Origin: Syntrophomonas sp.
GTDB lineage: Bacteria > Bacillota > Syntrophomonadia > Syntrophomonadales > Syntrophomonadaceae
NCBI GenBank assembly: GCA_016841875.1
Contig: JAENYG010000003.1
Coordinates: forward strand, 103,121 to 166,050
Length of the DNA stretch: 62,930 nt
Direction: 5' to 3'
Part shown: positions 30,419 through 35,721 of the stretch, in pieces
How the letters are laid out: each line of letters opens with the position of its first letter
How positions within the stretch are numbered: the stretch's first letter is position 1
The notes under the pieces: model-generated
Databases searched by the model: none
The model's input: only the letters and a program-made list of their open reading frames with translations
Told to the model about the DNA's origin: nothing
Program-made: the position numbers and the translations under genes

Positions 30419-30660
30419 TGTTGAACGATAAATTGCAGGCTGTCTTTTTGTAATACAGAAGTGATCTCAAATGATTCTTTTAACCTTTTCAACAGAGTTC
30501 TGACCTTGATAATGCTAACCCGAATATTAAGGAATATAGTGACTACCTTTTACCTCCGAAGTAAAAGAAAGTCCATTGGCTTCGCACCAAGAATGCTTAA
30601 TGCAGGGCAAAGTTTTTTATCTGCCGGTTGACTATAATTATTTATAATGGAGGTTTAGTA
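30419..30660. other. Spacer upstream of the 441-residue gene
   Basis: Together with the decayed stretch before it, about 560 bases lack an intact gene. A 7-bp stem CTTTTAC (30547-30553) / GTAAAAG (30561-30567) is present without a T run. The promoter of the next gene could not be placed. Confidence 0.35.
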
Positions 30661-31986
30661 ATGATAGTGACGCCAGAACAAATAATAAAAAAGTATTTTC
30701 CTGAACCGATAGAAACAACCAGGGATCTGTATGCCCGTTTAGGTCTGATTGAATACGGTTATCCCTATTTAAATTGGCTAAAAGACTTGGAAGAACATTG
30801 CCTCTCAAAATATGTGGATGATTCAGAGTACAAAATTCTGCCTGATGACGAGGAAAACTTCTGGATCAGCGAAAAGGCGTTTCGGACTATTATAGAAACC
30901 AGCCCGTCTAAAATAGGTGATGAGATCAGAAATTGCGTGGCATATATCTCCAGAAAAGTTGCTACAGACCCCACCTTTGCAAGACAACTGCAGGACCAAC
31001 TTGATCAAGAAGCTGGCATTGAAAAAGTAACACCCAAAGTTTCCAAAACTCTAAAATCTCAATATAATAAGTCCGGGCAAGATGCCTTTGAATTCTCGGT
31101 TAGAACTGATAACCGGCTTAATATAGATATTGTTTCCGGTTACAATTTCCAGCCAGGGCAGAAAATCAAGGATGCTGGTTTCTTGTTTAAACTTGTAGCA
31201 GAAAACGGTGTTCCTTACCATATAATTGATATTGTTTTATCTCTCACTAACGACCATACACTCTCATATCGGACTGTATGGTGCTGCAGCGAAGAACGCC
31301 AACGATACGGCGCCATCCTTACCAATAGAATCATCAGGGTGAACCTATTTGAAGATAATAAGAAGCTAGTTGATAGTTATAATTATATTGTGGGTCCGTC
31401 TGAGATAAGAACCTTGGAACTTGAACTTGAAAATGCATTAAAACTGCTTCTGGAAATTAACCTGGATGAAATAGATCTTGACCAGCTGGGAGAAAAAATA
31501 TTACTTCGTTACAATCTAAATGATCAGGCTTATGCCCAGGCCATTAAGGCAGTGATCCCCACTATGGCAGAATATCGAGCCAAAGGTAGTGCTGATATGA
31601 TAGAATCTGCATTTCGTGATGCAGTAGATCAATACTGGGAATATTACGTTTTGCGGCCTGATCCTACCAAGGATTTTGCAGATGACCTGGATCAAATGAT
31701 CAAAGATCGTATACCACGGATTACTCTTGCCTTGACAGTCGCAAATATGCTTGATTACGGTGATCTGTTCGATAAATACTTTAAGCACAGATTCACTAAT
31801 AACCAAAAGGAAGCACTCTTGATCGAAGGTAATCTACGGCTAATATATAGCTTGGCAGAAGCAACAGAATTTGACCCAAGCACTGCTCCTGACCAGCGCA
31901 TAGTTGATATGTGTGCCTTTATTATTGATCATCTTGATTTTATGAAAAGAATGTTAATTGAAATGGGTCATTGGCCGAGCAAGTAA
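30661..31986 (+). CDS. Orphan hypothetical protein (441 aa)
   Basis: Start ATG 30661 lies 7 bases after GGAGG; an upstream in-frame ATG at 30628 has no site. The protein is soluble and acidic with no signal peptide or membrane segment. An N-terminal helical part (1-130) is followed by a beta-rich centre (about 140-240, including VPYHIIDIVLSLTNDHTLSYRTVWCC and the Cys-Cys pair) and a long helical C-terminus (about 260-441). I recognise no family or catalytic motif. The stop codon is followed 13 bases later by a very strong palindromic hairpin that probably ends transcription. It looks intact and translated, with ordinary codon use. Confidence 0.65.
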   Translation: MIVTPEQIIKKYFPEPIETTRDLYARLGLIEYGYPYLNWLKDLEEHCLSKYVDDSEYKILPDDEENFWISEKAFRTIIETSPSKIGDEIRNCVAYISRKVATDPTFARQLQDQLDQEAGIEKVTPKVSKTLKSQYNKSGQDAFEFSVRTDNRLNIDIVSGYNFQPGQKIKDAGFLFKLVAENGVPYHIIDIVLSLTNDHTLSYRTVWCCSEERQRYGAILTNRIIRVNLFEDNKKLVDSYNYIVGPSEIRTLELELENALKLLLEINLDEIDLDQLGEKILLRYNLNDQAYAQAIKAVIPTMAEYRAKGSADMIESAFRDAVDQYWEYYVLRPDPTKDFADDLDQMIKDRIPRITLALTVANMLDYGDLFDKYFKHRFTNNQKEALLIEGNLRLIYSLAEATEFDPSTAPDQRIVDMCAFIIDHLDFMKRMLIEMGHWPSK

Positions 31987-31998
31987 TAAGATGTAATA

Positions 31999-32104
31999 GG
32001 GGACACGGGGACAGGTTCCTTGTCCCACAGGTTCAATTTATTGGTGGGACAAGGAACCTGTCCCCGTGTCCCTTTATCCCCGTGTCCCTTTATCCCCGTG
32101 TCCC
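31999..32104. repeat. Long REP-like inverted repeat with tandem tail; likely terminator
   Basis: Two perfect 29-bp arms (32000-32028 and 32044-32072) starting GGGACACGGGGACAGG enclose a 15-base loop. Two direct copies of TTTATCCCCGTGTCCC follow (32073-32104). The hairpin starts just after the gene ending at 31986. It shares the GAACCTGTCCCC core with the copy at 34269-34344. Confidence 0.85.
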
Positions 32105-32136
32105 TTCGAGGTCAATTACCCTCGTTTTCAGTGACC

Positions 32137-32274
32137 TTATTTTTGTTTTTTCCACTTTTTATAAACATCGTCAGGGAGGGGCATATAGAAGTCAATGGCC
32201 CCGGCTGGGTCCTCGATTGGACGAATATCATCATCCATATTGAAGCTGGACCCTGTTTTTTTTCCGCTTTTCAT
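32137..32274 (-). CDS. 45-residue small protein with own promoter, unknown function
   Basis: A complete small gene: AGGAGGTG lies 9 bases before ATG 32274, and a promoter-operator lies about 50 bases upstream. The product begins MKSGKKTGSSFNMDDD, continues IRPIEDPAGAIDFYMPLPDD and ends VYKKWKKQK. It has basic ends, an acidic centre and an aromatic/proline patch (DFYMPLPDDVY). It has no signal peptide or membrane segment and no recognised family. It may be a small regulator, antitoxin-like peptide or protein-interaction peptide. It lies upstream of and convergent with the 441-residue orphan gene, across the palindromic repeat. Confidence 0.65.
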   Translation of the reverse strand: MKSGKKTGSSFNMDDDIRPIEDPAGAIDFYMPLPDDVYKKWKKQK

Positions 32275-32327
32275 TTTAAATATCACCTCCTAATAAGTTC
32301 TGTTATTATTTTGCCCGCGTATTGTTT

Positions 32328-32365
32328 TTTATCTCGCCCACTTTTTGTAAAGTCAACGAGATAAA
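32328..32365 (-). promoter_or_regulatory. Promoter and operator-like inverted repeat for the 45-residue gene
   Basis: On the minus strand TTGACT (32356-32351), a 17-base spacer and GATAAA (32333-32328) form a sigma-A-type promoter. A perfect 9-bp inverted repeat, TTTATCTCG and CGAGATAAA, covers 32328-32336 and 32357-32365; one arm includes the -10 box and the other abuts the -35 box. Confidence 0.6.
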
Positions 32366-32555
32366 CCATTCAGAACAGATCAGGAATCAATTTATTTAGT
32401 TTAAATTTAGGCATTTACAGAGGGAGAATATTAGGGGGACGGGGTTGTTGACAACTTTTCAATTCTCAGGCAACTATACTCTGGGGTAACAAGAATAATT
32501 AAAGGGATCTATCCTACCAAAAAACTCGGTTCTTTCAAGGTATTACCCAACTTCA

Positions 32556-34491: not shown

Positions 34492-34707
34492 CAGCCCTGC
34501 GCCATTTTAGAAATTTGTACCTTGTTCAACGGAAGGCGGTCCATGGTATAATTTACCTATAATATGTCTAAAATTTGTGGAATTACTTGGTAAGCATCAG
34601 GTGTGGTTTTCACTTGAAATGTGTTGCCTAATTATACATTCTGACATACTTTTAGCAGCCCTGGTAATATGTAATACCCAGTAATTTCTCGAAAGGAGAT
34701 GGCCACT

Positions 34708-35721
34708 ATGCCCCTGAAAATAATTCGGAATGATATAAGCAAAATGCCGGTTGATGCCATTGTTAACGCGGCGAACACCGCATTAAAAATGGGCGGTGGA
34801 GTATGCGGAGCGATCTTCGCTGCTGCCGGAGCTGATAAACTGCAAAAAGACTGCGACCAGATAGGGAAGTGTGCTGTTGGTGAGGCAGTCATCACAAATG
34901 CTTACAACCTGCCCTCCAGGTATGTGATCCATGCAGTTGGTCCTATATGGCACGGTGGCAGTCATGAGGAGGCACACCTGTTATATAACTGCTATGCCAA
35001 CTCCCTGATTCTTGCCTGGCAGCATGAGTGCCAATCTATCGCTTTTCCCTTGATCTCGTCGGGAATTTATGGGTATCCAAAGGATCAGGCTTTACAGATT
35101 GCCATTTCTGCTATCGGTGAATTCCTTCTAAACTACGAAATGATGGTTTACCTGGTTGTCTATGATAAGAAGACCTTTGTTGTCAGTGAAAAACTCTTTT
35201 CTGCTATTGAAAAGTATATTGATGACAACTATGTTGAAGAACACCGTCTCAGTGAACGCCGCCGAGGCATAGAGCCTTACGAAATTCCGCAGCTTGAAGA
35301 AATGCCCGAACCTTTTGATATTTGTGCCTCTATGCCTGCAGTAGAGGTAAAACCAAGTCTTGAGGATCTCGTCAATCAACTGGATGAATCTTTTTCGCAA
35401 ATGCTCCTGCGGCTTATTGATGAAAAAGGTATGACCGATGTAGAAACTTACAAGCGGGCCAATATCGACCGCAAGCTGTTTTCAAAAATTCGCAGCACTA
35501 AAGGGTACAATCCCAGCAAGGTCACAGCCATAGCTTTTGCCATTGCCCTCGAACTGAATTTGTACGAAACCTGTGATTTGCTTGGTAAAGCCGGATACAC
35601 TCTATCTCATAGCAATAAATTTGATGTAATTATTAAATATTTCATTGAAGAAGGCAATTACAACATCTATGAGATAAACGAGGCCTTGTTCGCTTTTGAC
35701 CAGGTTCTGCTCGGGGCATGA
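34708..35721 (+). CDS. Macro domain protein with C-terminal helix-turn-helix-like extension
   Basis: 337 residues. Start ATG 34708 lies 9 bases after AAAGGAG; ATG 34699 is inside the site. Residues 1-170 are a macro domain: DAIVNAANTALKMGGGVCGAIFAAAG, AVITNAYNLPSRYVIHAVGP and FPLISSGIYGYPKDQAL, the ADP-ribose-binding loops of O-acetyl-ADP-ribose and protein-ADP-ribose hydrolases. After an acidic linker (about 185-225) comes a helical domain (about 230-335): TYKRANIDRKLFSKIRSTKGYNPSKVTAIAFAIALEL, resembling an Xre-like fold. The next gene, 76 bases on, encodes a von Willebrand A protein; the pair recurs in Bacillota. Predicted removal or sensing of ADP-ribose; target unknown. Confidence 0.88.
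   Translation: MPLKIIRNDISKMPVDAIVNAANTALKMGGGVCGAIFAAAGADKLQKDCDQIGKCAVGEAVITNAYNLPSRYVIHAVGPIWHGGSHEEAHLLYNCYANSLILAWQHECQSIAFPLISSGIYGYPKDQALQIAISAIGEFLLNYEMMVYLVVYDKKTFVVSEKLFSAIEKYIDDNYVEEHRLSERRRGIEPYEIPQLEEMPEPFDICASMPAVEVKPSLEDLVNQLDESFSQMLLRLIDEKGMTDVETYKRANIDRKLFSKIRSTKGYNPSKVTAIAFAIALELNLYETCDLLGKAGYTLSHSNKFDVIIKYFIEEGNYNIYEINEALFAFDQVLLGA

Follow-up and report, generated by a model that had tools for sequence, protein, structure and literature searches.

Minor SASPs are hydrophilic, lysine-rich and often monocistronic. They are very short, have a narrow phylogenetic range and are easily lost or gained (PMC3533761). Most are reported absent from clostridia. The small gene analyzed here, f1, is likewise very short and phylogenetically narrow when set beside the Bacillus minor SASPs (SspH-SspP, Tlp), but it differs from them in matching no Ssp or Tlp model in Pfam or NCBIfam and in carrying a strong extra box upstream of its putative promoter, and its expression in the spore is a prediction. 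With the alpha/beta SASP (PF00269) genes of the same genomes f1 has in common a -10-like box, GGNNANAATA, at 16-17 nt from an ideal Shine-Dalgarno (SD) sequence; those genes, in contrast, have a GCATA -35 element at 14 nt and no T[TGA]ACARAAARTGG box, and their proteins are unrelated to f1. A Pfam scan of f1 found no SASP domain (PF00269), the true SASPs being separate genes. Small regulatory peptides with an autorepressor operator offer another comparison: they resemble f1 in the short ORF and in a palindrome over a promoter-like stretch, but the f1 palindrome is not conserved along with the gene.

The f1 gene lies on the minus strand of the window, a stretch of 62,930 nt (G000:C27:103121-166050) from a 3.97-Mb Syntrophomonas genome, G000. 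It occupies positions 32137..32274, with an ATG at 32274 and a stop codon ending at 32137, and its 45 codons encode MKSGKKTGSSFNMDDDIRPIEDPAGAIDFYMPLPDDVYKKWKKQK. The original prediction of an undescribed, conserved and presumably regulated small protein held up: homologues are found in 10 other genomes, the reading frame is kept, and no family match was obtained. Over the full length of f1, mean pS is 0.61 and mean pN is 0.24; in the C-terminal half the values are 0.68 and 0.15. All indels among the homologues are multiples of 3, and the start codon is ATG, GTG or TTG. The conserved C-terminal motif reads NPxGAIDFYMPLPDDVYKKWK, and M1, I17, P23, I27, D28, M31-D35 and W41 are invariant across the alignment. 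By these substitution and indel patterns, f1 is under clear purifying selection and is a real protein-coding gene that encodes a selected protein. An AlphaFold model (pLDDT 64) has a C-terminal helix at residues 35-44, the remainder being of low confidence. Scans of nine f1 members against Pfam and NCBIfam gave no relevant family match, and a profile search found no PDB relative; profile matches to designed TIM barrels in the PDB were discarded, as their i-E-values exceeded 100 per domain. The antitoxin suggested earlier was not borne out, f1 being a solitary gene with no partner and no match in PADLOC or PHROG.

In a translated search of 61 relatives, G001, G002, G003, G004, G009, G014, G029, G032 and G035 each had one f1 homologue, and a profile search of 54 Syntrophomonadaceae genomes added G068, so that f1 is present, always as a single copy, in 11 of the 54. 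Nothing credible was found outside the family in 398 genomes of the phylum, where matches with E values of 0.01-0.1 were short stretches, mostly within other frames, and were rejected. Judged by homology, f1 is thus an undescribed, lineage-restricted small-protein family. The homologous loci come from Syntrophomonas sp., Syntrophomonadaceae bins and Syntrophomonas palmitatica JCM 14374. In the S. palmitatica copy the frame changes at VYKxW and no leader could be detected, so that this copy is probably decayed or mis-assembled.

When f1-bearing stretches were compared, no constant neighbours were found; only G003 and G004 have flanking genes in common near f1, and the neighbourhood varies even inside the genus. 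These differences imply that the transcription unit either relocates as a whole or has frequently been lost and reacquired. The f1 copies showed no transposase or repeat in common. In G002, which belongs to the same genus, a homologue of the window's 452-residue gene (84% identical) adjoins a homologue of the gene at 34699 (92%), and f1, the adjacent FAH gene (PF01557) and the 33746-34270 gene are all absent between them; the f1 gene of G002 is on a different contig. The f1-FAH block has been either inserted or deleted next to the gene at 34699-35721, whose product appears macro-domain-like by eye. The 452-residue protein, encoded at 30628-31986, has no Pfam family and was present in 10 of the 16 family genomes that were tested; the gene neighbours f1 in the window and f2, a second small-protein gene, in S. 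palmitatica (L077/L203), possibly by chance.

The most conserved part of the f1 loci, above the protein itself, is the 71 nt that end in the SD (32282..32352, minus strand), with 89% mean column identity in an alignment of ten intact f1 loci. The homologues in 10 other genomes, the pS/pN values and this identity place the ORF and its leader far beyond chance. Farther upstream the sequence is random-like, with 26-29% identity between most genomes. Within the leader, the spacing between blocks is constant in nine of the ten loci, G014 having a 2-nt gap. The ribosome binding site, AGGAGGTGAT (32282..32291), has GGAGGTGAT invariant in f1 leaders. The most conserved box, GGGCAAAATA (32307..32316), a proposed forespore-type -10, fits GGNNANAMTR and lies 16 nt before GGAGG. 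The upstream box, TTTACAAAAAGTGGGCGAGA (32332..32351), is a proposed contact site for an activator or sigma factor; most leaders of f1 and f2 carry it as T[TGA]ACARAAARTGGNCGA.

An inverted repeat and a promoter had been the core of the control region originally proposed. The strings described are all present on the minus strand, and the ribosome site (32291-32282) is indeed ideal, but the control region was misread. TTGACT (32356-32351) and GATAAA (32333-32328), 17 nt apart, were taken for a promoter; we rejected a sigma-A promoter here, since the hexamers are not conserved, and the pair is also absent from the list of a sigma-70 scan. TTGACT is found in two of ten f1 loci (G000 and G001 only), with TAGACT or TAGGCT in three others, and GATAAA is absent in G003, G004, G009, G014 and G029. 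The string that is conserved, T[T/G/A]ACA, overlaps TTGACT but begins four bases downstream, and no TATAAT-like partner was found for it at 16-18 nt.

The inverted repeat has perfect 9-bp arms (32328-32336 and 32357-32365) in a 38-bp near-palindrome (32328..32365) whose 17-nt arms, 32328-32344 and 32349-32365, are 82% complementary. A 9-bp repeat alone is ordinary, as the window contains 19 clusters of inverted repeats with perfect 9-bp arms and spacers of 3-30 nt; it also holds seven near-palindromes of equal quality. The 3' arm sits within the leader and is retained in some form at every f1 locus. The 5' arm is kept in a subset (9/9 in G000 and G068, 8/9 in G001 and G035, a near-match in G002) but is missing in G003, G004, G009, G014 and G029, that is, at five of the ten f1 loci, and at all f2 loci, so the repeat cannot be a general operator. 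On the comparative evidence, the core control element is the 71-nt leader rather than the 9-bp repeat. In G000, G001, G035 and G068 the segment 32353..32381 (minus strand) is 86% identical, against 28% for the adjoining 60 nt upstream, and it is therefore probably functional in this group; there the repeat might serve as an additional site or as an RNA stem.

We searched the 54 family genomes with R1, a sequence-only model of the f1 leader. It recovered all ten f1 leaders (E 1e-14 to 1e-22) and seven further full-length or near-full-length matches, each directly 5' of an ORF of a second family, f2 (E 1e-5 to 1e-8 in G025, G071, G072, G029 and G032, 6e-7 in G009 and 0.002 in G001). The f2 ORFs, of 44-46 residues, occur in seven genomes and have the consensus MKKAKxxAKNRMxPDPSVLEGIPAxDPHAEFAKKDAxFKxRRGAQR. 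Most of the seven are followed by a G+C-rich hairpin. The alignment behind a second model, R2, has wrong bases at columns 1-2 of six f2 rows (CTTGACA for CCTGACA and the like); the conclusions here rest on R1 and on true sequence. No Pfam or NCBIfam match was found for f2, and hhalign detected no protein homology between f1 and f2 (probability 1.7%), leaving the leader alone in common. Both genes are present in G001, G009, G029 and G032. Apart from one orphan half copy, full-length leaders precede solely f1 and f2. We conclude from these matches that f1 and f2 make up a set of two families whose defining element is one conserved leader.

The orphan half leader (L002:255-324) is in G000, which has f1 without f2; it carries the 22-nt pattern with no mismatch and precedes a terminator-like hairpin instead of an f1 ORF, as in a decayed gene or a short RNA. 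Other R1 or R2 targets, which fit part of the leader or fit poorly, were set aside: a SpoIID-domain lipoprotein in G016, a DUF2512 gene in G012, a 57-residue ORF in G001, a ribosomal-protein-like gene in G002 and two identical repeat copies in G025. The G001 ORF (L124:923-1200), unannotated and encoding MDYKNSAMKKMMQQDKVDPGTFSFLEPGWWALHATVITAIWVVADRMAKNSSHRNGV, has GGGCAAAATA upstream and is a possible further member of the promoter class. In G016, GTTATA-N14-GGGCAAAATA stands before a SpoIID-domain (PF08486) lipoprotein gene (L055, near 1501), which suggests that GGGCAAAATA serves sporulation genes of this family as a -10 box.

The reading that we favor, at somewhat less than an even chance, is that f1 is a monocistronic small protein driven by a forespore sigma factor, resembling minor SASPs and lying outside the described SASP families. 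The main SASP genes of the family have a near-invariant promoter of forespore type, GCATA-N14-GGNNANAATA. In the loci read (L088-L094, L130-L154) it is preceded by AAAATACTTCTA, and in several genomes gpr adjoins the main SASP gene. The f1 and f2 boxes have the form GG[GA][CT]A[AG]A[AC]TA, G014 having GGGCAACATA, and 16 of the 17 leaders match GGN[CT]A[AG]A[AC]TA, including the A/C alternation at position 8. The distance from box to GGAGG is 16-18 nt for f1 and f2 (14 in G014) and 16-17 nt for SASP genes. The -35 region is a poor fit: SASP genes have GCATA at 14 nt, and the leaders just ATA at 13 nt, not in all cases. A SASP-trained matrix gave most leaders p values of about 0.04-0.4 against shuffles, with G001 alone at 0.007; the six f2 rows in this scoring have the same wrong bases at their first two positions, outside the boxes scored. 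A plain sigma F/G promoter would have no counterpart of the strong T[TGA]ACARAAARTGG box. The family genomes are equipped for sporulation, with SASPs in 51 of 54 and gpr in 15 of 15; SASPs also occur in genomes without f1 or f2, which makes co-occurrence with sporulation uninformative. The forespore assignment is thus one that we infer, from the box, its distance to the SD and the kind of small protein, rather than a result. Literature searches on the leader motif and on sporulation in Syntrophomonas gave nothing specific.

Under the forespore reading, the leader would act chiefly as a promoter, with sigma F or sigma G polymerase taking GGGCAAAATA as its -10; in C. difficile, sigma F and sigma G recognise similar sequences (PMC3789822, PMC7438776). 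The weak -35 (GAGATA in f1, TGATGATA in f2), 13 nt upstream of the -10, would be assisted by a protein bound at T[T/G/A]ACARAAARTGGNCGA, and in G000, G001, G035 and G068 the upstream repeat half could provide a further operator. Transcripts would begin about 25-30 nt upstream of the start codon, and their perfect SD would allow a strong burst of synthesis. The product, a lysine-rich and mostly disordered protein of 45 residues, is predicted to end up in the spore like minor SASPs. Through its C-terminal helix, the product might bind DNA, an enzyme or another spore protein.

Alternatively, the leader could be an operator-promoter through which f1 and f2 form a small regulon for vegetative growth or stress, served by a lineage-specific transcription factor or an alternative sigma and unconnected with sporulation. 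The regulator would read the boxes TGGGCGAGA and CGGGCAAAATA, about 22 nt apart, that is, two helical turns. The f1 leader does contain two similar direct-repeat boxes spaced 22 nt apart, conservation of the upstream box equals that of the -10-like box, and a leader confined to f1 and f2 is what a tiny dedicated regulon predicts. Against this, the analysis found neither a third target gene nor a linked regulator, the f1 neighbours differ in almost every genome, and the downstream box is compatible with a forespore -10 in its sequence and in its spacing to the SD. We regard this alternative as possible and on balance doubtful. A composite of several elements, in which f1 and f2 form a dedicated regulon whose leader is read by an unknown factor, travel as a mobile cassette and have an SD-hiding fold in one group, seems unlikely to us; such a small-protein control system would, to our knowledge, have no counterpart.

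The leader, largely unstructured, might instead act as RNA, recognised by a protein or an sRNA, the upstream segment of the G000/G001 group hiding the SD in a translational switch. The G000 RNA folds with z scores of about -4.2 to -4.4 (G001, -2.6) into UUCCUGAU/AUUAGGAG over the SD, GUUCUG/CAGAAC and the hairpin of the inverted repeat; 92% of cells are paired, compared with at most 51% in a sliding control, and 32353-32381 is conserved in four genomes. However, z is near 0 or positive in G002, G003, G004, G009 and most f2 loci, compensatory changes occur in none of 30 pairs, and the switch presupposes a promoter located upstream of 32381, in sequence that shows no conservation. RNAalifold likewise gave no meaningful common structure for the f1 leaders, no consensus fold emerged, no covariation was found in the leader, and Rfam had no match within it. 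An RNA function is accordingly improbable. Least likely is a toxin, antitoxin or peptide gene forming a small cassette, selfish or defensive, that moves between sites, for which speak the non-syntenic positions of f1 even within the genus and the insertion or deletion of f1, FAH and the 33746-34270 gene as a block relative to G002, but against which stand the invariably single copy, the missing partner gene, the lack of a visible transposase or shared repeat and the absence of PADLOC or PHROG matches.

The two tiny-protein families, neither with a family model, are thus linked by one cis element in syntrophic fatty-acid degraders. Should the forespore reading prove true, they would add lineage-specific spore proteins to the clostridia, where most minor SASPs are missing, and offer a sporulation marker for bacteria whose sporulation is poorly studied. 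Should another factor read the leader, an undescribed regulator would exist, and the leader would supply the exact binding sequence for its capture.

In most genomes f1 has its own terminator. In the window, the stem CGAGGGTAATTGACCTCG (32107..32124, minus strand) is the counterpart of the AAAACGAGGG...CCCTCGTTTT terminators at other f1 loci, and its 3' side is truncated by an adjoining repeat made up of a palindrome (32000-32072) and three 16-bp repeats. Rfam MIR/mir matches here correspond to the GGGACACGGGGACAGG palindrome and were dismissed as chance, spurious miRNA matches. The whole repeat region (32000-32108), which abuts the f1 terminator, contains a 29-bp perfect palindrome, GGGACACGGGGACAGGTTCCTTGTCCCAC, and three 16-bp tandem units, TCCCCGTGTCCCTTTA.
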